Assembly: GCA_023053545.1 (NCBI GenBank)
Contig: JAKZAN010000004.1
Coordinates: 10,788,001 to 10,852,000, forward strand
DNA: 64,000 bases
Reading direction: 5' to 3'
DNA from: Lepidurus packardi
Lineage: Eukaryota; Arthropoda; Branchiopoda; Notostraca; Triopsidae
Position numbers and translations under genes: made by a program. The notes under the pieces were generated by a model that was given only the letters and a program-made list of their open reading frames with translations, was not told the DNA's origin and made no database searches. Shown here one piece after another: positions 35,993-61,818 of this stretch (position 1 is its first letter; the number at the start of each line of letters is the position of its first letter).

Positions 35993-38208
35993 TTATGGCA
36001 TCTGAGGCGGTTTGCCGATTCCGCCAGCGTGATCAAACACAGCTTTGGATACGTCCACTGCCAAACGATCTGCTTCTTCTTGACGGGCAGCTTCTGCATA
36101 AACGCGGACAATATCTTCGGTACCAGACGGCCTGAAAACAGGAGCAATTGTTATAGCAATGACTTTAAAAGAATTCTTTTCCAAATCACCTTACGAAGGA
36201 CCTTCCTTTATTCACTTGGCTAGCTAACTCATTAATGGCTTCTTGAAGGCCGACAGGGGTCACACAAACCCGCTCGGCATCAGCCGTTGTTATAACGTTC
36301 CGATCCTAAAATGAGAAAAAAGTCTCCTAAAGTCATAATTTCACAACGAAACCTTAATTCTGTACCTTAACCGAAACCTTCAATTGGCGATTGGGCAAGT
36401 CCTTGTACGACAGGTCCCATTGCTCGATACTCCATTCCCAGGCATGCAAAACGGTTTCTACCAGCAGCATATCCGATAGGGCATCTCCTACTGTTTGATT
36501 GATAATATCCAAAAAGAGAGCAAAACGTTGGGCGGCTTCTCGTTGGGCGGGTTCTAACCTACGATCCAGACAAGCTTTGAAAAAGGAACCTCCAGGGGTC
36601 AATAAACTGTCTACTTATCGTCTTGTGTGGCATTCTTTATTTTCTCTATGGCTGAGGGTTTTAGTACCACAGTTCCGTGGCCATTAGCTTCGAAATACAC
36701 ACCGATATCGAAATCCAGGGCTCGGTGATGCAAATGTTTGACTCCGGTGGGTACGCAGGCTACTTCCACTTTCTACGTACAAACAGATATGCATGGAAGT
36801 TAAAAAAAGGGGAAGGGGATATGAATTTACCAATGTTTTGGTGATGTACTCAGTAGAATTCCCATTCGCGTACGCAGTTTGCACCAAACCAAGATTCAAA
36901 TCTAAGCCACTCGAAGTGACAAGCTCTTTGATAAAGCCTGCTAATAAAGTAGCAATCTTATCCCCATCCAAAAGACGGAAGTTTCCTTCAGAAGTTATGT
37001 AGTAATACACCAGCCTATCTGCATCCCCATCCAAAGATACTCCGCGGACTCTGGGCTCCAAAGGTAAGCCTTCTGGTGCGCGCTGTTCGACTTTTACGTA
37101 GTCAGCGCCGCACTGGGACCATAAGGGATGTTTAGAGAGTGCTGACAGACGTAACATCAAATACCTTGAAGTTGAGCTTGCCTTCCCCTTTATTATAGAC
37201 CTCAATCTGTAAACTGTGGCTTAGTAGTTCTTGAAAGCGTTGAGCTTTCAAGTAGCCGACACCGTTAGCCCCATCTAAGCGTACGTATGGCTGGTAATTT
37301 CCACATGCACTTACCTAAAGAGACCAACATTAAGGATAGTCATCAGTACAACTCAAAGACGTACTTACTTTACCACGGAATTTCTCGAAAGCAAGGCTTA
37401 GCTTTTCAAAATATCCCTCTTCAGTAGGCTGCCCGTACCCTCCTTGAGTATTGTAGCAGGTTACAACATAATGGAGTTGGGGTGTTGAAACAAGACCAAA
37501 ATCTTGGTACACACCCTTTAAGACTTGTACTCCATCTACTACAGCTTGTGCTAAAGCTGGACTGGAGGGTCTAGTATACACAAAAAGGATTAGGATTACA
37601 ATTATAGTTCTCTTATGACCACCCAGACCTTGTATCCATCCCTACAAAAACCTTTGAGGGTAAGGTAAGGTCAATTTTGCACTCATCCACGATCGTTTGC
37701 AAGCAAGCAGACAGTTGTTCGTTCCTGAAAGTTGAAATTAAAGTTACACAACGTAAAGGGTTATATAAAACACCAGCGTAAGCATACGGAACGTTAGCCA
37801 AGTTTGTGGCCAGTACTTCCCAGTACGGTTCCAACATTTCCCCATGGGGATCAACCAGCTTTGCTCCATTGTCTGGCTCTGCATTATGCGACGCAGTTAC
37901 CATGACGCCAATAGTAGCTGAGGAAAATGTTTAACAATTAAATTAACCTTTACAGTAATTCGAGACATGTATACCTTTGGTAAGCTTTGACCTTAGGACA
38001 GCCAGCAGTCCCATCCTGTACATAACATGATCCAACAACTCAGCCCTAAATAAACAAAATCACGATAGGTTTAGACACTAAATGAATGAGGAAAGCCAAA
38101 TTACTTCGTTCTAAAGCCGGCTGTCCCATATTGAATCACTGTTTCTAATTTTCGAGCATGTTTTTCTGTGCCCAGTTCTTGAGCAGCTGTCAAGATACTG
38201 GCTGCCAT
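35993..38208 (-). CDS. PGM3: Phosphoacetylglucosamine mutase
   Basis: Eleven exons on the minus strand: 38208..38105, 38045..37975, 37917..37788, 37724..37629, 37570..37369, 37314..37165, 37112..36831, 36772..36615, 36558..36366, 36305..36190, 36131..35993; 546 residues (human 542), all phases agree. Reaction: interconverts GlcNAc-6-phosphate and GlcNAc-1-phosphate on the way to UDP-GlcNAc, the donor for chitin, glycans and O-GlcNAc. Motifs: [10 protein letters not shown], catalytic serine in VTASHN (Ser68), metal loop DGDAD (about 279-283), sugar-binding EANGHG (about 373) and phosphate-binding RPSGTED (501-507). All key residues are present. Exon C ends at an internal GTATGC donor, chosen because it alone keeps frame and matches the family length. 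The stop is 343 bp upstream of the attractin start. Confidence 0.97.
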
Positions 38209-39366: not shown

Positions 39367-41962
39367 TTACGCTTGGGTGTCCTTCGTCCATTGGGTAAAA
39401 TATTTAATCGCAAACTCCAAGAGACCGTGATATTGGTTGAGAACAACATAGTCGCGGAAGTGACGCGTGGAAGCGTTATCCTTGCCAATGTCCCGGCAAT
39501 TGTTCATCAAACTGCGTTGAGCGTCAGGTTCGGGTTGGATTTGCTTCTCGAACAAAGCACCTTGGAGCTCGCAAAGAAGGGCTCTGAGTCTGTTCTCGGT
39601 TTGTTTCAAAGGAAGGTAGAAGTCGTCTTCATCGATGGCACTGTCCATGACAGTTTGCTCCAGACTCACAGCGATTTGTTGGAAGGACAAATACAACGAC
39701 TTGAGAACAGTGGGCAAATCAGTTACATCCTCGTTGCGGATATCTTCATTGGGCAACCAAGGGATCCTGATATAACCGAAATCGTTGGTATGTTCTTCCC
39801 AGCTTCTCTGGAATAGCTTTTGCGCCTATAGCAACATAACAAAAACAACGCCAATTAGTCTCCTGGTTCTCAATGAGATCACAATGAATGCAAACAAGCA
39901 GATGCGACATGTCAAAAACCCTGGCCCATCATCCCAACTTGCATGTTTTAGAGTCACTCCAATTTAGATAAACTTTCCCTTTAGTTCTCTTTTTATGCCA
40001 TGCGTAGACCCAATTTTCCAGTGGCTGGGTCGCTGACCTTTACCTTGGCTGCAGACATCCTATAATTAAGATGACAGGTCACGGGATTGTCCCCCTCTTT
40101 TCATCCACATGTTCACTTCGAGCCCCTTATCCCTCACATTTTTAACCCCCACGCGGTGGGGAACTAGAAAGGTGCAAAAAGGTGCGGTAGAGAAGCAAGG
40201 TAAAAGGCATCTTTCTCTCTTTTCTTTTCTTTCAAAACCTCCAAACGGTTATAAACAGCAGCATTCCAAGCCTGTGCCAACGTGTACCACTAGATATAGT
40301 AACACTTAGCAACTCTTTCTTTAACCGGAACTGCAGCTTTTCGCATCACTAGACTTGCCTTGACCTGATAACCAAAGATTGACCGGGTTTGACCTTTTCA
40401 CAACCCGCTAAGGCAAGAGAGAAGAGTCAAGATCTTGGCAATACAGACATTCCCTAGCCGGACAGGTTTGGCGAACCCCAATTTCCGTCTCGGAAGTCGC
40501 ACTCCACTTAAAAAACCCCAATTTTAGAATACTACTTTAATCACACGACGCCGGCAATTTTTGTGCTAAACTGCTGGGACTACAAATTTCTCTTTTCTAT
40601 ATAGATACACCTACATAATATCTCTCTATATGTATATAGATAGATAAATAGAAGTATATATAGAAAATTGGGGAGGTAAAACATTTTACAGAAAATATCG
40701 CTCAGAAAAGTCCTTGGCAAGTTCGTATATTAAAAAGCTCGGGAAGTTCAATTTTCTTTGTGTTTAAAATTAGTATAGCCAAGGTAGTTTTCTCTGGGTC
40801 ATGATTCTAGGAATAGGTTCTTGTACTCCTGTCATCGCCTTCGTGCGTTGCGATCATCACCGCCGGGGCCCTGGTCGCTTTTCATTTAGCATTTTTGATC
40901 AAGCTTTTTTGAATTAGAAAGGGTTTAAGGTGAAGGAACATAAAATTCAAATCAAATTAAAATAAAAATGACAAAAAAGCTGCTTAGAACTGTTTTTTTT
41001 TTCAAAGAAATTTCCCAAGTTATGCTCCCATTCGAGGGTTTACTACCTTTGGCTCAACTGCGGTGGTAATAAGGATTGGAATGCCCATGACGTCGTGGAA
41101 TATGCGCTACCACACCAATAGATCACTTAACCAAAGCGGACCTACCGAAATCGCCCTTTTCTTGCAGTGTCTTCAATCCCCCCTTTTGTATCTTTCACTC
41201 TGAAATAGCTCCAGAACTTGAGAAAAAGCTTTAATGTTATCAGCCCGGTCCATCTCGCTCTCCTACGGTGACGACTTGGAGCTTACCTAACTTTAAATTC
41301 TGTCCCATCACATTCAGTACAGTGCTCTTTTTCCCTTTGCCAAAAGTATGTGCAATGGAAGAAGAAAAACTTTGGCCCTTTCTTCGCCAGGTCGCAAATC
41401 TTCGTTTCCAAAATAAACCCCCCAAAATCATCATCTCAATACCCCTTGTTTCAACGCGTTGTAACTCCTTTTGGGTTGGGTTTCTGGGCCAGGTTCTCTT
41501 TCAATTCGCCCCTCGTTTCAAAGTATTGAGCAATAGTCAGAAACTTACATAATCTTCCTTGAAGGTGTTGAATTGCTTGATGGCTTGCTCGACGGAAAGC
41601 CTGGTTTGCGTGACGATCTCGGCGTCGCTCAAAGAAGACGCGGGAGTAGGCGATCCTTTTCCATCGCCCAACACCGCTACCACATCAAAACCACACGGGT
41701 TGAACCAATAAGGTTCCAGCGAGAGTTGGTCTTTCACGGCATCTTTGTGATTGTCGCCAAACTGGTCTTCTCCGTCAGTGGAAAGTTTCGCTTTAGGTAA
41801 AGGAGCCGCCATGATACGCGCCGGGAGTGTTACAATGCAAGCGAGGTAGAAGAGGATCACGCAAACGGATTGGAATTCTGCACAGAAAATGGAAGAAAAC
41901 AAATTAAAATAACTTTTTTGTACTATTTTTACTATTAAGAGACTATTAAGAGAGTGAGTCAT
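39367..41962 (-). CDS. Secreted four-helix protein with NPCG motif, paralogue A (candidate cytokine)
   Basis: Exons on the minus strand: about 41962..41549 and 39825..39367, phase 0, up to 290 residues with a 1.7 kb intron. A hydrophobic stretch (CVILFYLACIVTLPARIMA) looks like a signal peptide, but its Met is uncertain: read-through to 41962 gives a long N-region, and an AG acceptor at 41889 suggests a separate first exon. Then YWFNPCG and four predicted amphipathic helices: DAEIVTQTRLSVEQAIKQF, LPTVLKSLYLSFQQIAVSLE, TENRLRALLCELQGALF and FRDYVVLNQYHGLLEFAIKY. A TATATA lies at 42059-42066. It shares order, NPCG, WLP, LEQ and FRD signatures and one intron position with the gene at 55997-57227. 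The layout resembles IL-6/CNTF-type helical cytokines; that is inference. Confidence 0.72.
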
Positions 41963-44900
41963 CTCTCCAGTATGCCTAAAACTTCCACTTCCAACCGAAT
42001 TAGCCCAAAAATCTCATTGAATGGACACGCTTCCTCTCCTGTCGCATGACTCTCGGCCTATATATGCTGCGAAAGCATTGTGGTTTCCTGATTCATGCTT
42101 TGCAGACGCCTTCGAATGAGTAAGCTCACGCAACATTCGGTTATTACAAAACTTGCTTTTACTTCTTTTTTGGGTGAAAAAAAAAGCGAGCGATCTTGAA
42201 AAAATATTTACAAAGAAATCTGTATTATTGATGATTTCCCTTCCTACTATTACCGATAAGGTAAACAGCGTTTCCTGGCGATAAAAAATGGTGTAATTAA
42301 GGCCACTTGCACTGTACTGCCGAACGGAAAGAAACGTCATTTATCACATTCGTTTGGTACCAAAAAAAATTCTTGAGGCCCTACCTCTTTTTCCAAAAAT
42401 GTAAAAAAATACTCAAATAAAAACATCCACGGCCTATAACATGCTGATTACGCTTACAAAAAAAACGGCGTCAGAAAGATCCATTACGGCAGCAGCTTTC
42501 GACCCCAAAAAAAATCCTCTTTTTTTTGAGCCTACGCGCTCATAAAAAAAATACTCATTTGTAATAGTTGACGATGAGCAGAAGGTTACGTTGTCAGAAT
42601 CTACTTGTGAAAGACAAAGGAGAAAGGAAATTCCGAACAAACTCAAAGTTACTCGTCAATTGGATTAAAGTTAATTGTGTTTAATTAAGTTTAATCCAAG
42701 ATTGAGGCTTACGCGGCGACTGTCCCGGGTCAACTTCCACGAAAAATGACTCTTGACCCTTAACTCACAAGAATGGGTTACCAACAACAACTTTCTGAAG
42801 CCTTCTTGGACACGTGGAGAGTAAATTGACTCATCCGCAATCCCCAGAACCTTCGTAAAAGGGACTTTGGTTAAAAAATTATCATACTCAAGGGGACGAA
42901 TCTTTTAACTTTGTGAATTTCCTGCACAAATGCGCGAATTTGCTAGAGCATTCGACAGTATTTATGTAAACAATCCTAATCATCCCTAATTCGGATTGAA
43001 ATGTGAAAATACAAAAATAAATTTGAAAAACTTACTCGTGCAAAACTGTTTCCAAGAGTTGGTACGGGAGGCTGCGGATCTGCTCAGGAGCAATCGCATT
43101 ACCTCAGGTGTAATAACAGGCACCACCGACATGTTATCGAATGAACTCATGGTGTTTGGAATAAAAGCTTTTCAACTTGTCGCGATATTTGGAATGTCGT
43201 CAACGAAGAGAATCGTCAAAACTCTTAGGGTTCGAAACTTGGAACTTTTTGAAAACTTGGGAGACTTGTAGCCCAAATATGCCAATTCCAAAAGGCAAGT
43301 GGTCAAAGGTTTGGTTGAGCCGAGGTATTTCAGACCAGGGTTTTGTTGTTGTTGCTGATTGCACGTCTTTAGGACTACTGATTGTTCCCGATGCAGGTCG
43401 GAGCCATTTATATGAACCCGAAGGAAGGCGTCCACCGTACTTGTCCATGGAATTCGACGGTCTTCAATGAAAACGACCTACAACGTTCGGGATGGGGCCA
43501 CGTGGGATTTGGTTTTGGTGGTTTTCCACTTCCACAGGCCCTCCTACTCCCGGGTTTACTCCAAACCGCTTAGCCACGGAGGGGCGTGGCTTTCAACTGG
43601 TACCCCTTTTTACCTGCAAATCCCTCCCCTTTTCCGCTCTCTCTCTGTTACTCTGTCTCTGTGTCTCTCCCTCTACCTAGGTGCTTGCTACGCTTTCATT
43701 CAAACTCGGAACTTGGGGCCAAGCGTCCGTGACGTCAGTAGTAAGTAGCCGGAAACTCGTTTTTACCTTGCCGGAGAGCGGGGCATCACCGTTCCACTCT
43801 TGCTTGGCGTCATGTGGAATCCCGCAAACCGGGTCTTCTAATAGTCTTTCCTTCATATTCAAAACCTGATTTCACCCACCAATTTTTTTAATAAGGCCAT
43901 TCTGTATGCTTTCATTCCTGCTTGAGATTCAAACATTCGGCCGTCAAAGCCAAAACGGAAGCTACGGCTGATGTCAACTAGGAACCATCCCCAAAATGCT
44001 CCTTTTTATCAGAGGAATGCCCACCTTATCTTGTTCGGCATTCTTGATTACGAGCAGTGAAGATGACTTAAGCCTTTGCAAATAGGGATTGCGCATGGGG
44101 TAGCGTGACGTCAAGAGGAATGCCCTAGGTGTCCAAGAATCTGGTACAACAACGTAAGTGAAACTCCCCAAATATCTTCCTCAAAAGGAAATTTCGTCCT
44201 GGTAACCAATAACCGCACCCTTTGACGCGATTGCAACCCTTCTACACGTAAGATTGCAACGTAAGATCCGCAATCATGAGGCATCACTTTGCAGTACCCA
44301 CACGAAAATTTTCCCCAAACGTGCCAAGCAGCTTGTCAATAATTTTTAAAAAATTCCGAATCACAGACGTCAAAAATTCTCCCATAAAGAAACTTTCGGC
44401 ACTTCCTAGATCTTCATCTCCTGGATTTTTAATATACCTAAGAATCCGCGCCACGTTTTTCCTTACAAATGAGTCGTTTGCCGGTGTGGTTTAGTTGTAG
44501 TTCCTTCCGGAGTACAGATTCCTGAAATTCTATGGGAGACCTCTTGGGCATCCCCAAACATGTCCCAAAAAGGTTGACCGCACAAATCTCCAACTCTCCT
44601 TCTTTTGGACCACAAGGAAAGCGTCAAAACGCGGAGATTTGCGGGTAAGCTTCCGCCAATTTTCGCATCCGACCATACTGGCGTACCCAAACTCTACCTC
44701 AAGATGTCTCCTTCCCAATCTCACGCAAAAAAAAAAAAAAAAGAAAACGGAAACAAAGAAAGAAAATAGAAAAGCTAATGTCAAGAAGACTAAAGGTTAT
44801 GAATGAATGACGGATTTTATTATGGTTGAAACGTAGGGATTCTCCACCTACGTTTCCTTCCCAAAGGATGTTACAGTTGCCCCAGCAATCTTCATTGCTC

Positions 44901-46745
44901 TGCTATAAGGCTTCCGTATGCTAAATATAAGCATCATGCAGAACCTCACTGTTCGGTTTTGACGTTTTGGACGATGAAAATGAAAACCCCTTTCTTCTTC
45001 TTGATCCTTTCTTTTGCTTCATCTTGTCTGTACACTCTCTATTTCAGTGTATTGCACTGCGGTGAAGAAACTTAACCCAATACGGAAAACCCGTGTGGAA
45101 TCTTGGAAGACCAAGTAGGGATTTCTACATTAAGCAACTCGGGAGAAGAGCGAGGTTTGAAGAAAACAGCAAACAGCTATTCTAAGCAAGTCGGGCTTTC
45201 GATATCATGGTGAACAGGAGGAAATTTTCGGCAAATGGTAGAATGTAAGGACGAGCAGTTTTCCTAAGGTCGTTTTGTAAGCCGTCCCAGGTACGGAAAC
45301 GCATTCACGATATTCCAACGGTGGAATAAACCCTTGTGACGGTAGTCGTAAATCGGGGACAAATGAGCTATGTTCGTCCTAAATAGAGTGCCAAGCAAGA
45401 AACGATTAAGACATGAGGGAAAAACTCAACTAGACAAACGTTTGATTTACCGAATTGAGCAATTGACTGGCGTCAGGGCTGGTTGCGAGCCATAAAAGAG
45501 CATTACCCACTAATTATTTCTTCAAATCTCAGAACGTCTGAGTGTATTAATTGGTCAGATGTCGTTCATAGGATATGCCGGGTAAAATCCGATATCCGGT
45601 AGCCCCATATAAAAGTCTAGAAAATGTTCCAAAGCCCATAGGACAGATCGTCAAGGTGACATTAGACACACTCTGGATACTACTAGTGTTCTACGTTACC
45701 GACATTTCTGGGCCTAAGAACTGGTGAACGCTTTTGATCTCATCCAAGGGTCTTAGCAAAAAGTCAGGCTGCCTTTTCTGGGGTAGAAGAAACTCGTCAA
45801 CGTGCATTCAACGTGTAGGCACAGTGCTTACATGACATTGGCGAGGTACGTCGGTAGGCGTTGATAGCCTGTCCTACAAGGTTTTCATACTTATAGGCGT
45901 TGGATTTAACTTCTTTCAGGGTTTATTTGCGTAGTTCTGTCGTTTGCTATTGCTAGAAATGTCTCAAAATGGATGATGTGACCTTGGTCACGTTGACACT
46001 AAGAGGGTCATGGTACTGGGTTCCTTTCCTGGCTAATTTAATATACTCGCATTTAACCCGAAAGACTTAAGTTTTGGTGACGAAATCCCAATTCATGATC
46101 AATTGGATTCATGACCACCAAATTGGTGATCCATTCAATTCCAATTCAAGATCATTTGGATGAAGAACATACATGAATGCTACGACAATATGTTTGTTTG
46201 GGGTGGAGGTGAAGATGAAAAGAATACAGAAAGAGTTGCTGAGGGGATAATCCAAAATTGCAAAAATCAGATCAAGATTGACTCTAATTAAGTACTTATC
46301 CATGAAGTACGTCTTTAAAAAGTAAACCGTTCGACCTTGTCGTGCGTTTGTCGATGGAGTCACGTAGTAATAAGGTTATTAGGGCGTGGCTATCTTTCGC
46401 ACGGGTTTCCAACACTAGAATTAGCTATGTCCAAGTATGGAAACGTGACTGAATCCTAAATCCGTGCCGAGGGCTTTATCCATTTTTGATCTCAAGTCAA
46501 TTTTTAATAACCTCGCTAATCTAAGAATAATGCAGATCATAAGTAAGATAAACTTGAAACAGAAGACAAAACATACAGGTTGGGTTTTCGCGGACATAGA
46601 GGGGGGTCTTTGTACTTCATAGTCCGTTTTGCTCAGGCTCTTTTACTGCCTCTCAGTTGGCTTTTGAAGGATAAGGGCGATAAGCGCATCGTTGGGCGTT
46701 TGTTTGTGTGAGTGTCAAGAGCAAGAGCAAGTGAGCATTACAAAT
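41963..46745. other. Intergenic desert between paralogue A and FUOM
   Basis: Begins with the paralogue A promoter region. Many small open frames on both strands, none with splice context or recognisable sequence. 46083-46170 has repeated ATTCAT/GATCAATTGGAT words. No gene seen. Confidence 0.45.
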
Positions 46746-49700
46746 ATGGGACGTTTAAAAGGCATTCCAACGCTGATTTCCCCGGACTTACTCCACGTGT
46801 TGAGCAGTATGGGCCACGGGGATGAACTAGGTAAAGTAACAAGTGCAGCTTACCTGTTTAAATTGGCAGAATTCAAAGCTTCCCAGACGACCACAAAACG
46901 CACAAAACACAGCTCAGGATAAGTGGGTGGTTGCGTTTTAGGCTTCGGCTTCGGTTTGGACCTGGTCCTGGATCCAAACTGAAGAATCCGTCTAACACAG
47001 GGCGGGAAAATTTGAATTTGTTAAAAATAACGGTCACGATTGCCATTATTTCTGGTTCGTTTACCATAGGGATGGTAAAGCTAGCAACAGGACAACAGGA
47101 TCACAAGTCTTTTTTATATGTTGTAAGTAGTTCAGGGACCAAGCTAATATTCACTTTAAAAAAGCCGGGAAAATTTGACCATTTTAGAACATAACGGTCA
47201 CTTTTCTTTTCACTGGCTTTGGTTTACTTTCTTAGGAAATTTTTGAGTTAGCAACAAGACACATTGGAACTTTTCTTACTGCATGCTAAAAATAGAAGTA
47301 GAGTCGATGGTTAAAAATAGACCACACGTCGTTTCAAAGATCGGCTTAAAACTAGATATTTTGGTACGATAAGCGCAGACTTTGATTGGACTTAATACCT
47401 ACCGAGATTCCCATAAGAACGCGCGTTAAAACGGAAGACGGATAATGCTGTAAAACTCTAGAAAGTTAGAGCGAATTCCTTGCTCTTCTTTAAAACAGCA
47501 TTCCAACTTGCGCCCAACGACCTGGTCTTTGAACTGATATCTATCTTGTGATCAATCTTGCTGCTTACTGATCCCAAGACTTGCCGTCGAAGATTTAGAC
47601 CCCTGTTAACTAGGAAACGGCAATCATGTCCACTAATTACCACTCCATGTCCCTGTGTTTCGAAATCAAAATCAGGTCTAATAAAGTAATTTTATTTCCG
47701 GCTTGGGAATTATAGGACTTATTTTACCCTTGTGACATCATAAATGAAATTCGCAAACGCAGTACAAGATATCTAGGGTAAGCGATAATTAGGTGATAAG
47801 ATATTTGCAAAGTCCTATGCACTTAGTCCGTGTAGATCACGCACTTAATACGTGTTCTTAGAATATTTAGTTTATTTACTTGGTCAGTACGCCTTAATTA
47901 GAAAGATCCGCTTCATGCGAAAGCTATAGCTTGTTAACCTAAATACCTTGAGTTATTAGTGGTTAGACGATTTTGACCAACCGACGTTTGTGTACCCGGT
48001 ATCTTTCAAAACCTAATCGAGCGTCTCATCGCCTTTCAGAGTTCAGGAAATTCTCATTTGTCAAGACGAATTCGATGGAATATTCCGAAATCTTTGCATT
48101 TCAGGCAAAACAATTATGTTCTAATATCAATCTTCTTAATCCAATTCTGTTGAAGAAGAATTACGTGGCTTTCGTGACCGAAACCATATTTACGGAAGTC
48201 AAGGGCTCACGCAGTCTCTAATAGTGAGAAAGTCGCACTTCTCAGCCTTATAAGGGCATGCACTTCCGATCACGGATGCCAATCGTAATTCTTGTGACTA
48301 CCGGAAACCACAACTCTATTCGTATGGAAACCAGCGTCTTGAGTCGAGTATCATAGGTACTAGAGGTTCCAGAGCTCAAGACGTTTCGGTTCCGCAATAC
48401 CGTATTTACTCGAGAGTTCGGGTACATCCTGGACGCGCTTGGTACCTTTCTACCCGCGGATCTTGAAAGCGTGGATTTTTGCTCATACACCTCTGCTGAT
48501 GAACGCCGTAATGGAATCAGGGGAGACGACAGCAATAGTTCGCTGATCCTGTCCCGTTTTTTTTGGTCGCGTGTATCAGTCTTATTTGGGTTATAACCGC
48601 ACAGGTTTCTGTTGCTGGGGAGGGCTTGGGATTAAAAACGGCCGTCGAGTTGTTGGGCTTCTCCGAAAATTGCCGTCAACGTTGCAGGCTTATCAATCGC
48701 AACCAATTTTATATCAAGATCAATGTCTTAAGGACGTAAATAGCTGGTTCGGGACATACTTGTGAGAAGCCTCTAATGCCAACAGAGTAAATGTACCTAG
48801 AGCGACTACCATCAACGCGACTACCATCCCTAGGCAGCTTGGTCTTCAACTACGCACTTACATTTGCATCGGTTCAAGTCAAAAACCCGGACGTTGTCGG
48901 AAATCCTGTTTCCTACGATCATGCGGTTGTATCCTAACGCGTGCTCTTACTAAACTGTAACAAGGAAGGGAAAGCCAAAGCTCAGTCAAGTCGAAAGGTT
49001 CTTCTTTTCAAGTTTCATTTATCACCAAGAGGACAGCAACAGGCTCCCCAACAATGAAAACCTCACATGTTGAAGAGCCTGTAACTATCGATTACGCCCG
49101 TTAAACGATGAAGAAGGGTCCCCTCTTGTTTCGAACAATGAATCCAGCAAAAAAGAGCCCAAGGGAAGGTGTCACTAATAAGACAAGTTAGAAATCGGTT
49201 AACAAGGAATGCCAAATGTAGAGAGCCTTGTATAATCAGATACCAAAGGCAAAAGTTTACATGATTTCTCGGAAGGATCAATTCTGGACTAGGCACAGCA
49301 TTGTTATGGGTATAGTCAAGGTTACTTTTACTCTTTCGGTCCCACATTGGCCCAGGTCAGAATACATTGATATATAGACAACGGAAAAGGACCCCCAAAT
49401 CCCTGTATAGATTGAAGGGGGATGGTATCAATACCTTCGGATCCCCTATACAAGAGTGCACACACCGCACGCGAGATTTGCCTAATCAAATTTCTCCGAA
49501 GTGTGTCCCTATAGTCGATTGTTCCTTTTAGCCCAGCGAAAGATAGACCCGACGCAGCAGAGCCTACGGTTCAGTTGTACGAAAAAAAGCACTCCATGTA
49601 TACACATTATATGCATCTAAATAATATCAATATAAAAGGCACCCAAGGCTGAACTGTGCTGCTCTGTCTGCAGAACATATCGTATAAGAGTTTGGCTGTC

Positions 49701-52700
49701 TCTAGTCAGGCTTGTTACAGCATCTTATGTAGATATAGCTAGAGCCAAAAGCTTAGGGAAAGGTTTTCGAATTTTCGTCTGATGCCGTGCACGCAAAAGA
49801 CTATTGTTTCACGCGAGGAAAAGTTCCACGAAATATTACTAGCAACATTGGCATGACAAAAAACAGCTCCCGCCCCTATATGCAATTCAATGCCAACATA
49901 GCTGGTCACCCTCGGCTTTCTTAATGAAGATTAACCAGACAAGTTTATGAAGGCCGGCATTTCTCGTTTTTCTTGACTTGCTAACATTTCCAATTAACTT
50001 GGAATTCGGCGCCACAACATGAACCAAATACGTTTTGGGCTAAGCAGCTTAGCAAGCAGCGCTGGCCAAAATAGGACATTTAGGTTCCCTGTAAGCCATA
50101 TTGATAAACAGGTGTTATTGGCGAAGACCTTAACCGTGCTCGAGGAGCAGTGCAAGTACAGTACTACAGGCCAAGACATAACGAGGCCAAATTGTCTAAT
50201 CCTTTCCAAGATGGAAGCAAAGAGTCATCATCGCTTGGGATAGTCAGATCTAAACGTCCGGAATTCCAAGAAATGTGCCTTCTTCGCCATTCTACCATAG
50301 TATATACACAACTGACAACGGTGAGAAGAGTCTGGTCCTTCCACTGGCAGGTTTTTCTCGGATTGCGAGACACAATCAGACATTAAATGCGGTGTCAAAA
50401 CAACGCTCAATCCTCCGCCACTTTTGGCCAAAACGTCTCAAGTTTATTATACTGCTTCGTGGCCACATCCCTCAGCCTTTCATGCTTAAAACAGACTGGA
50501 GATAACAATGCAGTTTGCTTCTCGCTTAGATAGTATTGCAACACCTTGACGGCTAAGAGCTCAGCCAAAGTGACGTCATGACGGTATGTCAATCACGATG
50601 TATAGTATACACCGACAGACTTATCCGAGAACAAGGAAAAGGGGACGTTTTCCACCTCAGCAACGTTTACAATGCTAAATAGTATCCCGCACACATCACT
50701 TTCGTGTTGTAAACGACTTATTAGGAAAACACTTGCAAAGGTAAATAGATAAACAAGTGCAAATAGATAAACAAGTGCAAATAGATAAACTAGTGCAAAG
50801 GTAAATCATTGGCCGTCTTCGATTCTGCAATAACTCCCCCGCATTGATCTCTTTCCTTGTTTTACCATCGCTCTGGATTCAACAGGTGTTCCGCGTAGCA
50901 CACCTGGATTTTGGGCTTTATAGGCGATGACAATGTGTACCAACAATGCGCATAACGTAACATTTTTGGGCTAGAAAAGGTTCCCAAAAGCCGACACCTT
51001 TTTTACGAACACCTGATCCGGCCCGCGTGCGGACCTAATTGTGGAGTATGTTCTACTTATAGGCCTAATAAAGCGACAAAAACCGGCGGCGTTACCCGAA
51101 ACAGAATTCACGGCAGGAGTCCGGTATCACTGGCCGAATCGTTTCCGATTGACCGAGTTTGAAGCAACAGTTACTCGCTTAGCTAGCAACTCGCACGCTT
51201 TTCGGGAAATTAAAGCGGTTACCTTTGTCAATTAAGCTGAATTCAAGAAGAATCCGTTGGAAAGTGTGAAGTCGGCACAGAGAACTCGGTAATTCAGAAA
51301 TGCTAGCTTCAACTGAGTCCACCGAGCTATATTTGGTTACCTATATGTGGCCCAGGCCCTTAAAAACTGCTCAGGAATTCTAGGAAAGGTGCCAAGAAGT
51401 ATAAAGCAACAAACAAGAAAGCAGACAGACACCAGCCCAACGTCATTTTTGCGGGTTAAATTCCCCAAACTGCTTTCCCTGGACTACCCCGGTTTCGAAT
51501 TCTCAATACGACCTGAGAACGTTTCTCTTATCTTTTCTGTTAAATATACCGCAAAAACCAAACCGAAAACAATAGGCTTTCCGAAGCTTCGCGAACAGGA
51601 AACTCCACAATGATATTTGGAGTTCAGTAATGAAAGAATAAGTGGCGCAACTCGTTAATCACGACCTCATCAAGTTTCCAGCGACAATGCTCGAAATAAC
51701 CGAAACAAAACGTCTTGTCTTGACCAAATACGGCATCTGGAAAGTTGCCCCTTGCACCTTTTCCTTGCAGGGCCCTCATAAGCTATGTAAAAAAGAAAAT
51801 ACAATCAAATAATATATTGTACATCAGAAAGTGTCAACAAAAAACGCAATTTCCTTTACAAGAATTGAGGCCGTGTATACTGTCAACAAAACATCCAAGG
51901 GGAAACAACCCCAACCTACGCTGCCAAGACAACTCGCCCCGTTTTACCATTTTCCCAAAAGAGTTAAACAGGTATATCGAAAGGGTGTGACAATTGCTGC
52001 CGCGCGGCTTTTAAACGAACCGGGGCTCCCGTCTCATTGTGGGCACCAAAACTTGTTGCAGCCTTCTCTTTACTCCGCTTTTGTCATCGGAAACAATAGA
52101 AACGCATCGAGGGGTCTGCTTTTGAACCTAATTCGATTGGGGAAAGGGGACGGGTCACGTGACAGACGCTAATCACCAATGGTTAGTACAATTCATTGTT
52201 GGCTGAACACTGCCAGACCCGTCCATTGGCTCCCAGACGATAAATAAAGGCATTTTTGCATCCATTACGATGTCTCCTTCCTGTTTCAGAAAAAAATGTA
52301 AGGGAAATTAAAATTGCTTAAAATAAAACGGTACTGGATTTTAGCCTGTTTCCGTAACAATCTGCTCTGCTCTGCGAGGATGGGTCAAGGTGAAGGCTGT
52401 ATGACTTGGCAACGTCTTGTGGACATGAAGAACCAGCAGGTCCAGCAGGTATGAGCGTGACCAAACATCTTTTCAATAGACGCATTTCCTAGAATCAGGA
52501 ACTGTGCATAAGGCTGCGTTTCTATTTTTTATATTGATTTTAAACAACAATAGGTCCTATCTCAGCGTTTAGTAGCTCTACAGTTTCTTCTACTCTCGCA
52601 TCTATATACTACGACGGATTATGTCATTCTAACTTGCGTGTTCCACTGGTTGCACTGGTGCAATATTTTGGCATTCAGTGTGTCAAACTTCTACATCTTT

Positions 52701-54771
52701 ACCCACTTCTATTTTTTATATTGATTGTAAACAATAATAGGTCCTACCTCAGCTTTTCGTAACTCTACAGTTACTTTTACTTTCGAATCTATATACTACG
52801 ACGGATTGTGTCATTCTAACTTGCGTGTTCCACTGGTTGCACTGGTGCAATATTTTGGCACTCAGTGTGTCAAACTTCTACATCTTTACCCACTTCTATT
52901 TTTTATATTGTTTGTAAACAATAATAGGTCCTACCTCAGCTTTAAGTAGCTCTACAGTTTCTTTTACTTTCGAATCTATATACTACGAGGGACGCCGTCA
53001 TTCTAACAGCGCGTTCCACTGGTTGCACTGGTGCAATATTTTGGCATTCAGTGTGTCAAACTTCTACATCTTTACCCACTTCTACTTTTTTATATTGATT
53101 GTAAACAATAATAGGTCCTACCTCAGCTTTTAGTAGCTCTACAGTTACTTTTACTCTCGAATCTGTATACTACGACGGACTGTGTCATTCTAACTTGCGC
53201 GTTCCACTGGTTGCACTCGGTGCAATATTTTGGGCACTCAGTGTGTCAAACGTGTATATCTTTACCCTACCCTGATTTGCGAAATACAAATGCGATCTGA
53301 GCTTTCTAGAAATTTGGGGCAAGTTGTAGAATATCCAATCTTGGCCTCTTCATACTATTTGGCTGGGCACGTTTTGGAATCATAAGTTTCTATGCGTCTC
53401 CTATCTTACCCGCCTATCGGGCGACCAATAAAGTTTGTATACACAAAGAAACCGAGCAGCAATACAGTACTGTGCACTATACTGGTATTCGATCTACCCT
53501 GTAATTCTGATACATGGTAATAGCACAACCAAATAATCCTTTTTCTTAAGGCCTAATACTATAACGATAATATAGAAAAAGACGAACTTGAAAGATAGCG
53601 TACTGCAACGATATTGCGTACAGATAGAAAGAGAGCTCTTTAGAGACCTTCACGCGAGTAAGATGGTAATCAACCGGATTATAATTTGCCTGCACTTGGT
53701 CCCAGCCAAACCAAAAATCGCACTCAACCGAAAATCCCTTGAGACGTTCAAGCGACTGTATAACAAGTTTCTAGGTAGTGTTTACAGGAAAAGCTTATGA
53801 TTGATTATAGAAGAGCAAATTAGCGAAAAACTTTTTGGAAGATGCCAGCTAATACCTCGATCACTTCTACAACATGGGGAACCAGATACCAGAACACCCA
53901 TCAGAGGTCACCTGGTAACACCGGGGATTATTTTGGGTGAACTTGCCGCGCTCTCTTCCTCAGAATCCTAAGATTCACTCCATGGATTCCCTACTGCAAC
54001 GTAGTCTCAACGAAAGCTTAGGAGTTAGGTCTCTCGAGGGACACCTAAGTCTATTACGAGCCAATAACGAAACCTCCTTTTTATAGAGCTTCTCAATAAA
54101 GCTCTGATTGAAATCTATAAACACTCCAAAAGTTAATACCCAATTGACTTGTATTTACTTTTTAATGATCGATTGTTTTTATTTACTCATTAGTGATCGC
54201 TGATGCTAACTTCCCAACGAGTTCCACCTGCGCTAAAGGCCCACGCGAGGTTAGAGCCGATGGACACTCCGCCACGGCAATTTTGGAAGCAATTTTGACC
54301 CTCATGCCCCTGGATACCTATGTTTACGCGCCGGTAAAACCCCACACTTGACACATCTTCCGAGAATTGTAACTAAGCCACTTAATGCTAAAAACGTTTG
54401 GTCCAGGCTGCTGTTATGAGCATGACGGATTCCGATAAACGGCGTGGTTTACCGGATCCTCCGGCCATCAAAGGTGAATTCCAAGCGTTGTTGGACGCAG
54501 CGGAAAAACGGAAAGTTCCGATCCAAGAAGTCGAACGTTTCGACTTTTACGAAAGGGCCAAGAAAGCCTACGCAATTATCCAAACCGGGTAAGTATTTAA
54601 CTCCATTTCTTAGCTGGATGGCTTCAAGAAAGAAAGAAACTAAAAATTCCCTAATTCGCACTATAGCTTGTAGAAATTCCTCAAATTCAAATACTGAATT
54701 CAATCTTTTCATTGTTTAGGGAAACGGCGTTGTATGGAAACATTGTTCTAAAGATGGGGGTTATTTCGTGA
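46746..54771 (+). CDS. FUOM: L-fucose mutarotase
   Basis: Exons 46746..46830, 54194..54333, 54407..54588, 54720..54771; phases 1, 0, 2; 152 residues (human 154). Reaction: interconverts alpha- and beta-L-fucose (RbsD/FucU fold), feeding the GDP-fucose salvage route. Exon 1: MGRLKGIPTLISPDLLHVLS then MGHGDEL, with the conserved His. Exon 2: IADANFP and ADGHSATAILEAILTLMP. Exon 3: AAVMSMTDSDKRRGLPDPP and RFDFYERAKKAYAIIQTG. Exon 4: ETALYGNIVLKMGVI, as in human. Exon 1 completes a Val codon with exon 2 exactly. The first intron is 7.4 kb while the other two are 73 and 131 bp, so exon 1 would be missed by simple gene finders. Confidence 0.94.
46831..54193. other. Large first intron of FUOM
   Basis: No gene recognised inside. 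46995-47200 has a diverged internal duplication (GGGAAAATTTGA..ATAACGGTCAC). 50732-50807 has an 18-bp unit (CAAATAGATAAACAAGTG) in about four copies. 52521-53270 is the 187-bp tandem array. A short frame at 52380 (MGQGEGCMTWQRL) with a GTATGA donor does not fit FUOM. Confidence 0.6.
52521..53270 (+). repeat. Tandem array, four copies of a 187-bp unit
   Basis: Copies start at 52521, 52708, 52895 and 53081 (periods 187, 187, 186). Each starts TCTA[TC]TTTTTATATTG and carries a TTGCACTGGTGCAA palindrome (with one extra base in copy 4). The copies differ at a few percent of sites, so the array is not brand new. Confidence 0.93.
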
Positions 54772-55996
54772 AAACCCACCTCATTCCTTTCAACTTGTTA
54801 ACAAGTGCAGTGTATTCGGACAAACACACTTGTAATTCCCTAATGATGGAGGAATAAAATGTAATGTTTAATATACTGGGATTAACACAGATAAATGGGT
54901 TGTAAAAGACACAGATTACAGTTTTTGTAGTACCTAGTGACCACCCTAGTTGTTGTCCAGTCTACATAGAGATAAGAAACGAGGCTTGCTCGAAGATAAG
55001 ATGATCCAGGGGAATTTTTTCCTGTATTTTTTGGATGAGTAATAAGAAAAGCTTGCGTTATATGATAAATGAAAGAATAATATGTCGATCGGTTATTCTA
55101 TTATTGCATGTGCCATATAGAGCACACGGGAGCTGTAATTCTCCTCATGAGGTAATGACTAACTATAGCTTTTAGGTGTTTTTTTACCACTGGTCCTGGT
55201 TAGTTTCGACGATATGATTGGGTGTCGTGCGATAAGAGTAGGAATTCACGAATGGTTAAGAACGCGGTAAAGGGGCAGTTTCTTTAAAATAATGAATACA
55301 TTCGCCACACTTCGATAAAAGCTAAAAACGTCACTAACTGATACTAAATTGGCATAAAGGAGGGCACACTAACTGCAGACCAACACATCAGCATTCGCCT
55401 TTCATTGAGTTCAAGTTTAGCTGTGTTAATAGATTTGGATTTTGCTAAAAAGCAGCATTAATTAACCATTTGAAAACAGGTTTTGGAGATTTGAACACTT
55501 CGTTAGACAATCGCACAGACAACGGAAGACAATCATCGCAATCAAGACAATCAAGACAATCAAACGCAATTCGTTAGATAATCGCAAAGTTTAATTGTAT
55601 TTTGCTTTAATTGTATTTGATTTGCATCTTGCAAAAACAGTAGCATTCATTAACATCGTTAAAACATAGTTTCGGGAGATTAGAAGGCTTTGGTTAGATA
55701 ACGTTCAATTGTCTCAAATTGAATTTTCGAGTCGAATTGTTGTTTTTCGTATTTTGTGCTGAATTTTCTGGAGTGGAAATTGAAGTTTGATGAAAATGGC
55801 GTCCACATTACTTTCGATTAAAGGTAAGATACTTTCGGCAATCCAGCCTCTGAAACCCACGTACCTAATGGGACAAAACTTGCATTCTTGGCGTAGCAAG
55901 TTTACTATAGCAAGTGATTAGGTTCTGTCAATGGACCGGGGGTTTCATGCTCGTATCTAATCTTTATACCCGCCCCCTGTAATACTAAAGAAATTT
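54772..55996. other. FUOM 3' UTR and upstream region of paralogue B
   Basis: AATAAA occurs at about 54854. 55500-55580 has repeated GACAATC[AC]A words. CTTTATACCCGCC at about 55963 is a TATA-like site 25-30 bp before the paralogue B start. No other gene seen. Confidence 0.5.
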
Positions 55997-57227
55997 ATGA
56001 AATTCTCTACAGCGGTGATTATCGTCAGTCTCTGTCTACCGCTCACAACAGAAGCCAGACCGTCTTTCACGCCGCGTAACCAGGTTTCCCACATGGCCCA
56101 CAGCGAGTTAGTTTTGGACTCGCCTCCTACTGAATTCGGGTTTTACTCGCCTGCCTTTGATGCGGACAGTGCAGCAGAGATTCCGGTAACATCGAGCTCA
56201 GCAATACACGAACTAGACGATACTACGGCTGAAGTGGATGCAGTAACCGTAGTTGAGCAACCAACAACTTCATGGCCCTTATCGTCATCTACTATGGCAT
56301 CAAACACGGCTTACATGTCACGTGGACGGACCAATGTTTTGGCGGCTCCAGGTGTTCCCCAAGGAATGCTCTCCCTCGACCCACCGTTTTGGGTGAATCC
56401 TTGTGGCACTAGCTGCAGAAAAGGACCTCGTAGTTCTAATTCCAACGACGACACAGCGCTCTACGCCCAAACTTTATATGTAGCAACCGATATTGCGCTC
56501 ACTAACGCCAATTCTTTCCGAGATGTCTATGTAAGGTTTATTTTCACAGCTTGTCCGCCTGATTTGGCATTGTAAACTTTATACCTTTCCTTTTCCGCAG
56601 ATACAGACAACATTCGGAGTTAACAGTTTTGAAGAATTCGCTGCAGATTGGGCAGACTTTGAACTCGATTGGCTGCCCACGCATGAAGTCATCCCGAAAG
56701 AATTGGGCGAAAATCTGACTTCTTCTTACTTATCTACACTGCAGGTATTTCTATACAATGATACAATTAGCAAGAAGAGTAAACTGAAGTGACAAACAAT
56801 CCTGTTACTTAGTTTGATGTGATCGTCAGTACAGGATTTACTGCTATGCAGCAATATGCGGTGGGGCTCGAGCAATTGTTGGAAGATAAGTATTACTACG
56901 AAGCCCCGTTCGCGAGGAATTTTTTAGATCTAACCCTAGATGTGAAATCGGTAAAGATTTAAAGCTACGATAAGACTAGGAAGGTTGCAATTTTTACTCT
57001 AGTTGTTATAGGAGGTTTTATGCACTTTGAGCTCGGCAGTTGACGGCATGGGCATTGTACGCCCTATCGATGTAGGAAGAAACGTCATGCCTGATAACCA
57101 ACGTGACGTACAGGACTATAGCATGCGTGATATGAGGGACTTCATCATCTTCAGAGACCTCATTAATGCGTTGGAGTACTACAACCAAGTTTCACGATAC
57201 TTTGTGACAAAGAAAGCCATGTTGTGA
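55997..57227 (+). CDS. Secreted four-helix protein with NPCG motif, paralogue B (candidate cytokine)
   Basis: Exons 55997..56530, 56601..56744, 56813..56950, 57012..57227; every junction is phase 0; 343 residues. A clear signal peptide (MKFSTAVIIVSLCLPLTTEA) is followed by a low-complexity, Ser/Thr/acidic pro-like region of about 110 residues and FWVNPCGTSC. Four predicted helices follow, one per exon: ALYAQTLYVATDIALTNANS, STGFTAMQQYAVGLEQLLED, DLTLDVKSEVLCTLSSAVDG and MRDMRDFIIFRDLINALEYY. The helix D FRDxxx pattern, the Cys in helix C (VLCTL) and the long A-B loop (WLPTHEVIPKEL) recall class-I helical cytokines. Not recognised as a named arthropod protein. A decayed copy lies 1.3 kb downstream. 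Confidence 0.85.
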
Positions 57228-58529
57228 GAAGGACACTTGTTTTCCCACCGTGACCACACCTTTTTCTTATCTATGGTTTCCCAGCTTATAATATTTATTA
57301 GTTATTGCAACGCTTCATGTAAGATATTACTATTCTTTTATAAAATACAATTTTGGAAATTTTGGAACCCATATGAACAGAGCAATAATAAAAAACACAC
57401 ATTTTTTTTTGCTCATTTTATTGAACTTTAAAATAGTAATAATACAGTTAACATTGAATTTACCAGTTATTTAGTTGTCCAACGCAACGGTCTCCAAAAA
57501 GTACCAACAATGAACAAACTGACGAGTGACGACAGACCACAAAATTGCAAGCTTGAAAGTATCCACATTTTTCTGATAGCTAATTGAAGACATGTTTTTC
57601 TCGTGATAATCTTACTCTACAAATTTAGGAAATTCGAAATGAAATGTTCTACCTGTGCACAAGTTTACCAGGAATCCATTTGTTTTCACAGCAAACACTT
57701 TTTGCCCGCCATTTTTGATTATTTGGATAATTTTACAGATTGTTAAACGTACGCCATCTAACGTTGTGGATCTAGAGAGCAGTTCGGGATGCCATAAAGC
57801 ATAAATTCGATTTATTCTACTGCGGTTTTGGACTTTCTTTTGTTTATCGTTTCTTGTACACGAAATGATACTTATAAGACTATTTCCAACCGCAATGTTT
57901 GCTCTTCTTGCTCTAATTCTACACCTCGATTTCATGCCTACAGTTTGCATCCACCATTATGTGTAACGAGCTATTAATGTTAGGCGTTATTGACAATTAG
58001 CCAAAAAATATCCAATGTGTTCCCACATCAAAGAACGTTTCACTACTAAATTTGCGTAGCTATTTTTCTTGCATTAAATTAAAAACAATATTTAACTCTC
58101 CATGAGTATTATAATTAAATTCAACTATTCTACTATTTCAACTGTAGAAAATAGTTGTGGCAAAAGAATCGAGATATATTCATGATTAACTGGATGTGTT
58201 CCTACTAAGAATTACATTTACATTTGGCTTAAAGAGTGACTTCATAAGGTGTTCTGGAACTCTTTCATGATTTGCGCTTCGGAAACAGAATTTTCAGCTT
58301 TAAAGCTATCGCTCAGTACATTTTCGATTGAAGGTCAGTTATAATTAGCTCATAGAACTAGACTTGATTGTAGCATCTGAGAAGTCGAAGATACAAACCA
58401 CAATCTTCTAAAGGTTGCACTACGAAATGCTACAGATGTGGAAATCGTTAATTCAGGGTGGTTTCGTGTTGTTCTCTTATCTTTGGTTACGTATATAGCC
58501 AAGTCCTTATACTTGAAACTAACCCAAAC
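57228..58529. other. Gap between paralogue B and its pseudogene copy
   Basis: 57390-57960 has an AT-rich 3' UTR and an unsupported minus-strand frame (57612-57950). 58250-58530 resembles the upstream region of paralogue B in part. No gene seen. Confidence 0.45.
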
Positions 58530-59175
58530 TGTAAACTCTAATGATGCTTATCGTCAGTCACTCTCTGCGATTCACAACAGAAGCTCGGCCAGATTGAACT
58601 CCTTGTAATCACAGCACATGTCAGCATTGACCGAATCAAGTTCTTTCAATCTTCGCCTTCCTTTGATTCAGGCTGTTCCGCGGAGATTCTGGCAACACAC
58701 AGCTCAGCAATACCAGGCTATAACGATAATGCCGCTGAACAAGACAAGGTGATAGCAGTAGAACAATCTATAATTGCCCGGCCCTTATCATCAAACTACT
58801 TTGGTGTCTAACGCGTCTTACACATCAAGTGGACCGACAAAGGTTTGGGTGGCTTCCTGTAATACCCAAGAGAATGCTCGCCCGTGTGGATAAATCCTTG
58901 CGATAATAGAGGGAAAGGATCTGTTCTCAACGGCGATACTACGGTTTACGCATAAACTTCATGTAAAGCAAGTATTGCGCAATAATATTGCGCTTTAACA
59001 ACTACTCTTTAGGAGATACCCATGTCAGATTTCTTCTTACTAGTTATTCTGCCTACACCATTTGATTTCTATTGGAAACTTTATACCTTTCCTTTTCTCC
59101 AGATACTGACAACATTTTAAGCTAATAATGCTGCAGAATGGACCAATTTTTAACTTGACTGGCTGCCTTCGCAAG
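58530..59175 (+). pseudogene. Decayed third copy of the NPCG four-helix gene
   Basis: Matches exon 1, intron 1 and the start of exon 2 of the gene at 55997-57227. Shared words include ATTCACAACAGAAGCTCGGCC (signal region; CTCACAACAGAAGCCAGACC in B), CAGCTCAGCAATAC, GTGTGGATAAATCCTTG (the NPCG codons) and CTTTATACCTTTCCTTTTC (intron 1). Several frameshifts and stops break it: a stop in the signal region (AGATTGAACTCC), a TAA directly after VW in the NPCG segment, and a stop at TACGCATAAAC. Homology ends about 59175, where the 59190-59335 repeat starts, so the 3' part was probably lost. Confidence 0.85.
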
Positions 59176-61818
59176 CAGTAAATTTTCAAAACTTGATTCA
59201 AGTTATGAAAAGTTTAAATACATCATATAACTAAATCTTTTGACGCAGCCTACCAGTATAGTTTTATTAAAGATATGTTCAAGAAAGGAATTTTTAAAAT
59301 TATATCGTTAGATTTATTTTAAATTTCTGTTTAAAAATGTAGTTTAACATTATATATTTCACTATATCTAGGTGGCATCTACCGCCAACAATTCAAAACG
59401 AACGTAACATCCCAAAACCGCAAAACAGAATTCAATTCAATTGAATTTCAAATTGAACTCAATTGAATTCAAATTGCTCGAAACTTTAAACAGTAAATTA
59501 ATATTTAAGCTACACACGGATTCATGTACAAAAACTAATGTATATTATGATCTTAACTGAGCTACTGATAAACAAAAAAGTGGTTTGTCCACGTGAATGT
59601 TCAAGACTTATATTTACATGCCTTTTTTCCGATATTTGATACATTCTTTCATGGGATAGATTCATTTTTCACAGAAAAAATGGGGATGGGGAGTGTTAAT
59701 TATTTCCTTTTTATCTTTTAAAGCCGACACAACACATGTGCGCTCTGCACCGAGCCTTTTCCTTCCCTATGCACATGGCAGTGGGTTTTTGTAGGTAGAA
59801 GGACATAACATACAGGACGCAACTTATGTCGCATACATTCGATTTTTTCCGCAACATTCATTATTAACTCTTAATCTTTTCAAAGGGCGAACCAGGGCTA
59901 ACATGGCCTTTCTTTACTTACAAGAAAAAGGACTTCCGCGACAAAGGGGAGAGAAGGGAAATATATCCAAACAATAAGCGTACCATACCATACATACGAA
60001 AACCAACCTCATCGAGAACAGCGAAAAATAGTGTGGGGGAAGGGAACTATTTCTTGCTTTTTTGGACGAATAGAAATAAAAAAGAAAGATTTGTTTTCAG
60101 ACACAAGACGCATACCGCACTAACACGTGAAACATCGTATCCCTTCCTCTCAGATTTCACGACTTGCTCTCATTATTGTAGTTTTACTTATGTACACACT
60201 TCACAACTAAGATAAACAGGATCAATGGAGTCTTTAACTTTTTCTCAGAAAAATTTGGGATCACAATTCCCTCCCCCGCAACTCAACAACTGTCCATACC
60301 AATAAAAAACAATCCAATTAAAAACAATCTGTCTCTTTGAAGCCTGTCACTAAAAATAAAGACTGACTCCCCCCCCAAAAAACTAATAAAAAATAAAATA
60401 AATGTAGGAATATTCCAAGCCCACAAAAATTTTGCTTTTCTTTTCCAGAATCCAGACTTCTCTATTAGTTCAACGCAGGCGAGTTTCTAATACTTGAGGC
60501 CTTAGTGATAATTAATTAAATTATTTTATTTTCTAAAAAAATAGAAAAACACCAACTCTTCTCTCTTCTTCCAATGAAAACTTGTCCAGTGCAAACTTGC
60601 TTGGCTCTTTGATTTGCACTGCTGGTGTTCATCAAACAAAAAAGCGGGGGGAAAAAATAAATGTTTGACAAAAAGTGCGACAACTTTTCATATAATTTTT
60701 TTGTCCGTCTCAGAATAAAAAAGGGTTTAATCTTTGGCTATTCTATATACAGAATCCGAGCTAACTCTTAATTCAATTCAGGTCTCGCGTTTCTTTAAAC
60801 TCCAGAAATGGCCCAACAGCCTACTGACTCAAGTCCTTTATGTTTACGCTTTCCCCACAAAAAGAATTTCGAAAAAAAATAAAAACGGAATAAAACTACC
60901 ATCTCTATAGGCTTTCCCCTCGAGGACCAATCCGGAACATTACAACCCATTGGGACACTAAAAAAAAATCGAAAAAAGGGGTTCTATTCTTGTGTTCGAT
61001 CCACGGAGATCCATAAAATATCCACATCGTATCTTTAACGGACACGAATGCAGTTCTTAGTTGTCTTAAATTAACATAAAAAGCCCCAGCAACTAGGAAA
61101 AAGCAGTTTTAGCTTTTAAGCTTTGACTTTTTCGTTTCCCAGCCTCGAAAAAAGCCTGAATCTCGTAAGTCAGTCCTATCTACAACACAAGCCCCGCCTG
61201 TCAACAAACAAAGAAACGCCCCTTTCTCCTCCCCTTCTTTAAAAAAATGTTTTTGTACCACACAACGTAACTTTTTTCCTTTCTAGTTTGAAAAGGGATA
61301 CTGAAGACTATAGTAAAGGACAATCTGAAGCTTAAATTTCACCATTCTTGCCGCAACTTTTCTTAAATTCCAGACCTTTCACTTTTCTGCCGAGTCATAC
61401 ACACTCCTATGCCGTTCAAGAGGAACTTGCTACGTAAAAATTAGCAAGTGTTGCAATCCTCCTTTTCTTGCTTACGATTTGGTTAAAGCTTTCAATCTGG
61501 TGATTGGGGTACTTTTTGTTTCGCCTTACTCCTTCCCAGGACCTCCAAATAAATAAAATCAAATAAAAAAAAAATCTTTTTTGAAAAAAAAATCCCCTTC
61601 TCTCATTTCCCTTCCCAAATTCTATAACGTCCAGTCAAACAGAACAAGGTGCATCGAGGACATGGGTCATCATCCCACTGGTTATTTGTGCAGGGTCACT
61701 CACCTAAAAACAGAAGAATTGAAGATTAAGAACATCCACTTTTTTAAATAATTGTTTAATTCGTACCCTTGTCCTCTTGCCCTTGTTCCAAAGCTTTCAC
61801 GCCGGCTGATACGTGTGT
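59176..61818. other. Repeat remnant and likely MXD 3' UTR
   Basis: 59190-59335 is a partial copy of the inner MITE at 33645-33938. 59428-59475 is an AATTCAATTGAA-type palindrome run. The rest, to 61818, is low-complexity with many A/T runs and no frame I can support; some of it is probably the MXD 3' UTR. Confidence 0.45.

Follow-up and report, generated by a model that had tools for sequence, protein, structure and literature searches.

Two intact genes and a degraded copy

The window, a stretch of 64 kb, is part of contig C3 (12.9 Mb) in the 108.6 Mb genome of Lepidurus packardi. It had been proposed in the initial annotation to hold two intact genes for secreted proteins and one dead copy, and splicing, translation and the homology of the two products bear out the intact pair. 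The first of these, gene A, is read from the minus strand:

41962-39367, minus strand: gene A, intact, with coding exons 41962-41549 and 39825-39367 spliced together
41549-41962, minus strand: exon with the secretion signal, a linker, the NPCG motif and most of helix A, from splicing and translation
39826-41548, minus strand: intron, phase 0, GT-AG, 1723 bases
39367-39825, minus strand: last exon, running from the end of helix A through the WLP-bearing AB loop to helices B, C (LLCEL) and D (FRDYVV) and the stop
42058-42064, minus strand: TATA-like element TATATAG, a possible core promoter of gene A, from a consensus match

The 5' exon of gene A encodes a hydrophobic core, VCVILFYLACIV, with a hydropathy peak at residues 33-51 of the model, and ends in a phase-0 donor directly after ...TFKEDY. 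A good acceptor-like site at 41878/41877 suggests that the true coding exon may start at 41877, with a further 5' exon upstream; a search for an upstream signal-peptide exon gave no clear candidate. The start of A is thus uncertain, and the phase is certain for one of its introns alone (phase 0, after FKEDY). The TATA-like element is one of 65 matches to its consensus in the window, about one per kb. Counts of STAT and kB consensus sites near the two genes were uninformative: the 1 kb upstream of A holds a single palindromic STAT site, and that of B holds none.

Gene B is read from the plus strand and is divided into more exons:

55790-57227, plus strand: gene B, intact, spliced, with GT-AG introns
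55790-55823, plus strand: probable first coding exon, MKMASTLLSIK plus one nucleotide, with the phase-1 donor GTAAGA
56013-56530, plus strand: exon with the rest of the signal peptide, a long linker, the NPCG motif and most of helix A
56601-56744, plus strand: exon with the end of helix A, the AB loop with WLP and the first part of helix B
56852-56950, plus strand: exon with the rest of helix B (LEQ) and the first part of helix C
57012-57227, plus strand: last exon, with the rest of helix C (VLCTL), the CD loop, helix D (MRDFII) and the stop

The end of the probable first exon and its donor region have a likely counterpart in the dead copy at 58322-58341, where 17 of 20 bases agree (E 0.02 by blastn, with two short stretches searched). 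The exon that follows has its acceptor at 56013 and a phase-0 donor after ...SFRDVY; with the alternative start, an ATG at 55997, it would run from 55997 to 56530. Hydropathy places the hydrophobic N-terminal core of B at residues 2-20, and by the same measure the N-termini of both A and B are of the secretion type. All introns within the mature part of A and of B are in phase 0, and the one shared near the end of helix A agrees with the conserved phase-0 intron of the initial annotation. Taking the predicted first exon into account, the intron phases of gene B are probably 1-0-0-0.

The dead copy lies downstream of gene B and is degraded:

58545-59179, plus strand: pseudogene, a partial tandem DNA duplicate of gene B with parts of the NPCG exon and of the next exon, the intermediate intron kept

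Its main part, 58653-59179, covers parts of the NPCG exon of B, the following intron and part of the next exon, and is 67% identical to gene B over 565 columns with 60 gaps; a further block of 40 bases at 58545-58584 also matches gene B. The copy carries many indels and has stops in all three plus-strand frames, as its description as dead implied. Since the intron is kept, the copy is not a retrocopy. The last two exons of B had no match beyond the pseudogene at E 1 (tblastn, window plus 9.9 kb on either side).

The surroundings of the genes were surveyed by Pfam matches, which gave four further genes in the window:

8890-9264: SLC6-type transporter
20967-21710: PSMD12/CSN4-like PCI protein
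31894-32646, minus strand: attractin-type propeller
36687-37220, minus strand: phosphoacetylglucosamine mutase

Just 5' of gene B, at about 52380-54770 on the plus strand, lie exons that, judged by eye, we take to belong to a gene resembling fucose mutarotase. Between genes A and B, at 52520-53267, a unit of 187 bases is repeated four times head-to-tail with 92% matches. Elsewhere on the window's own contig, at 0.42-2.8 Mb, there are large arrays of RR-type cuticle protein genes; genome-wide at least 150 such domains were scored, all on contigs C1-C6, which marks the host as an arthropod. The standard code applies to genes A and B. Among the smaller contigs, many from C73 upwards carry kinase genes interrupted by in-frame TAA or TAG codons (for example L001-L008); these sequences probably come from ciliates, as contaminants or epibionts that were assembled along with the animal.

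Homology of A and B and searches for relatives

Mature A and B share 31% identity over 203 aa (blastp E 2e-16), and the Smith-Waterman score of the pair is 170, compared with a maximum of 68 among 2000 shuffles of B. Genes A and B are homologous beyond doubt. The motifs named in the initial annotation were seen in the alignment, with two corrections: where the shared intron falls, A has FKEDY and B has FRDVY, and helix D carries FRDYVV in A as against MRDFII in B. Two cysteines are common to the proteins, one in NPCG and one in helix C.

We searched the genome for further members of the family. A DNA pattern for W-[FLIMV]-N-P-C-G found two sites in the 108.6 Mb, which are genes A and B, and the reversed control of the same pattern found none. 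With mature B as the query, the genome returned the exons of B itself and gene A (E 4e-5), and nothing besides; with the last exon of gene A as the query it returned that exon alone and missed B, so the sensitivity of such searches is limited. Within that sensitivity, no third intact member was found. A profile search at maximum sensitivity, run on the reading frames of the window and its two 9.9 kb flanks, recovered the six exon pieces that belong to A and B; two further pieces, at 59154 (E 0.25) and 38330 (E 0.27), remained below threshold.

Neither protein reached the cut-off of any family in a Pfam scan, the sole match listed being that of A to Wtap (12.5 bits, cut-off 35). The two-sequence profile of A and B gave 14 matches to PDB sequences, gasdermins and topoisomerases with a best E of 0.028; we rejected these as chance matches of helical stretches, all at E 0.028 or worse. 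A significant profile match to a non-cytokine family, which the initial annotation had named as speaking against its reading, did not appear, and neither Pfam nor the PDB sequences gave a sequence-profile match to a cytokine family. Families of the helical-cytokine kind are often without sequence linkage to each other. A viral relative was likewise rejected, as none of 58 pattern matches in viral contigs was confirmed by tblastn. The literature search, with most subscription papers and bioRxiv preprints outside its scope, found no paper describing the family. A and B are thus the only two intact members found in this genome, and they match no known family; together with the hydrophobic N-termini, this upholds their description as a secreted, undescribed family.

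Predicted structure and fold searches

The structure of the proteins was predicted with AlphaFold2 in two runs, led by A and by B respectively. Both runs used the same two-sequence alignment of A and B, so the two models are not fully independent. Each model has four helices of 23 to 34 residues, at residues 62-92, 124-146, 153-179 and 207-238 in the A-led model and 20-53, 83-107, 114-140 and 167-199 in the B-led model. The connections are long, short and long (AB 29-31, BC 6 and CD 26-27 residues), and from these loop lengths, the helix directions not being seen, we infer an up-up-down-down arrangement. Model confidence was low in both cases, with a mean pLDDT of 44.8 and pTM of 0.47 for the A-led model and 48.8 and 0.48 for the B-led model. 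The amphipathicity of three of the eight helices exceeded that of shuffles at p < 0.05.

A Foldseek search of the A model against the PDB gave 349 matches at E ≤ 10, the best at E 0.076. Judged by entry titles, class-I helical cytokines made up 17 of the best 20 and 24 of the best 50 of these 349, counts that are uncalibrated and include many repeated entries of eight proteins. IL-11, G-CSF, IL-6, LIF, IL-27 and GH were at the top of the ranking, and prolactin and CNTF were also among the matches listed; apolipophorin-III stood at rank 19. The B model gave 221 matches, led on E-value by unrelated, assorted helical proteins, with cytokines at two of the best 50 (G-CSF at rank 11 and GH at rank 12, both E 1.7); G-CSF and GH had the top TM-score and probability among the 50 matches listed. 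No match of either model reached E ≤ 0.001, and the cytokine matches of both had TM-scores below 0.5 and rmsd of roughly 8 to 16. In a viral structure library, none of the 448 matches of the A model reached E ≤ 0.001; the list was mixed, and the viral IL-10 homologue stood no higher than rank 20.

Of the four-helix, cytokine-like character that had been claimed for the family, the four-helix layout, the loop lengths and the nearest folds of A thus held up, while significance was not reached, the TM-scores and model confidence were low, and B was much less clear-cut. On these models we consider it likely that, as regards the fold alone, A and B are divergent class-I-like long-chain four-helix cytokines.

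The closest parallel is with the gp130 group of long-chain class-I cytokines and its kin (IL-6, IL-11, G-CSF, LIF, CNTF, CLCF1). These share with A and B a secretion-type N-terminus and the layout predicted here, four long helices with a long AB, a short BC and a long CD connection, and they are the best fold matches of A, below significance. Unlike them, A and B have a long linker and the NPCG motif before helix A, and no sequence link to the group was detectable. The genes for IL-6, G-CSF and GH have intron phases 1-0-0-0, the first in the signal peptide and the later ones in phase 0, and the probable phases of gene B follow the pattern of IL-6-type genes. In the class-II helical cytokines IFNL2/3, one report describes an intron after a short first exon that splits a codon after its first nucleotide, the others being in phase zero (PMC2654155). 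By our own estimate from common phase frequencies, a few per cent of genes could be expected to show phases 1-0-0-0 by chance alone, so the pattern supports cytokine kinship and does not decide it. In members of the LIF/CNTF/CLCF1 subgroup helix D begins with an F-x-x-K motif; in the A-B alignment this motif is absent, the positions reading FRDY in A and MRDF in B. LIF and OSM have a disulfide from the N-terminus to helix C, which a putative bond between the NPCG cysteine and the helix-C cysteine of A and B would resemble.

Receptor, signalling partners and possible roles

A weak IL6Ra-bind match (E 0.2) led to a receptor gene on another contig:

C4:2920500-2938400, minus strand: gp130/CRLF1-like receptor gene, a candidate Domeless (L021, L024), from domain matches

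The frames of this gene encode an Ig-like first domain (a weak Lep_receptor_Ig match), a cytokine-binding module with the signature C-X9-C-X-W, and fn3 domains, one of them over its cut-off; the EpoR_lig-bind, IL6Ra-bind and Lep_receptor_Ig matches were weak and all under their cut-offs. D1-D3, with the exons joined by eye so that the join is approximate, were compared with PDB sequences and matched CRLF1 at E 1.2e-7 and gp130 at E 0.004. Downstream come a TM segment and the frame of a tail, in which 12 tyrosines occur, five within GYV or GYT; from order and strand, segment and tail would be part of the same gene. On its likeness to CRLF1 and gp130 we label the receptor Domeless-like. A JAK-type FERM_F1 domain was found over its cut-off at one site in the genome (E 2.5e-10), the JAK label resting on this FERM part, and STAT exons were found over their profile cut-off at one locus.

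The best overall explanation, to which we give an even chance, is that A and B are a pair of class-I-like cytokines and ligands of this gp130/CRLF1-like receptor, which is of the type that goes with the gp130 group. A cytokine fold combined with a Domeless-like receptor as its partner is equally balanced in our judgement, the pairing being suggested by the presence of both in one genome. The predicted bundle, at low confidence, would consist of four long helices, with long crossover loops between helices A and B and between helices C and D and only a short turn from B to C, and a bond between the NPCG cysteine and the helix-C cysteine would pin the N-terminal arm to it. The secreted cytokine may then bind the receptor and bring receptor chains together, whereupon the pairing would activate JAK and STAT would dock on tyrosines of the receptor tail. 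The 31% identity of A and B, together with their different linkers, suggests that the two differ in expression or potency.

The receptor of flies has its own ligands, and A and B may be compared with a known and a reported activator of arthropod JAK/STAT signalling. The proposed role of A and B, as secreted ligands of a Domeless-type receptor in an arthropod, is like that of Unpaired (Upd1-3) of Drosophila, and the initial annotation had suggested them as its possible non-fly counterpart. In two surveys, Upd was not found in mites and ticks, nor in the honey bee and Coccidae, where the core JAK/STAT parts are kept (PMC12027997, PMC5306392). In malacostracans, Domeless, JAK and STAT are found throughout, according to a report whose main text does not contain the words unpaired or upd (PMC5437397). 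In the shrimp Marsupenaeus japonicus, Peroxiredoxin 4 is reported as a Domeless ligand, in a paper that calls the arthropod activators largely unknown (PMC9195186). Peroxiredoxin 4, like A and B, is an arthropod protein put forward as a ligand of this type of receptor; it is an enzyme, whereas helical bundles are predicted for A and B, which match no known family.

One alternative, overlapping with the cytokine-pair explanation and differing from it in descent, is that A and B are true Unpaired orthologues that were inherited from the arthropod ancestor and have diverged beyond profile recognition. The presumed role and the receptor type would be alike, the genome holds no Unpaired over the profile cut-off, and the absence of Upd from surveys in which core JAK/STAT is kept is what a fast-evolving ligand would lead one to expect (PMC12027997, PMC5306392). 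Against such orthology, A and B have no match to the Unpaired profile PF15972, which is not listed for either at E ≤ 10 (filters drop most matches above about 0.1), and genome-wide nothing exceeded its cut-off. Its two best sites lie elsewhere in the genome (L009 and L010) and were rejected, since both matches score weakly (E 0.05 and 1.7) and are interrupted by stops. We regard orthology as unlikely. A wider version of common descent is a tentative idea that we consider less likely than not: A and B would be Domeless ligands that keep vertebrate-style intron phases and a LIF/OSM-like disulfide, and Unpaired, the A/B family and the vertebrate gp130 cytokines would all derive from one bilaterian cytokine.

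The fold evidence leaves the receptor unspecified, and a four-helix cytokine could act on another cytokine receptor or on a receptor tyrosine kinase, as the CSF-1-like and SCF-like helical ligands act through receptor kinases. Such precedents notwithstanding, the genome encodes the gp130/CRLF1-like receptor described above together with a JAK-type FERM domain and a STAT, and the loop layout of A and B is that of the long-chain group, so that we consider this reading improbable. The low model confidence, the rank of apolipophorin-III in the A search and the assorted helical proteins that lead the B search would all fit a secreted helical protein that does not act as a cytokine, such as an apolipophorin-type lipid carrier or a seminal or haemolymph protein, whose likeness to a cytokine bundle had come about by chance. 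Apolipophorin bundles have five helices and short loops, whereas in both predictions there are four helices, all long, and two of the three connections are long as well; cytokines moreover prevail at the top of the A ranking, and among the listed B matches they have the best TM-scores. A role outside signalling is accordingly doubtful in our view.

We therefore return to the cytokine pair as the preferred explanation. With the matching type of receptor present and no fly-type ligand recognised, A and B are good candidates for the missing signal. Domeless, JAK and STAT are retained in mites, ticks and crustaceans, but the fly ligand was not found in the surveys of mites and ticks (PMC12027997, PMC5306392, PMC5437397). 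If our explanation is true, the question of the Domeless ligand in arthropods could be tested directly on two specific genes and a specific receptor, and the A/B family would supply sequences for tracing the origin of IL-6-type cytokines before the vertebrates.
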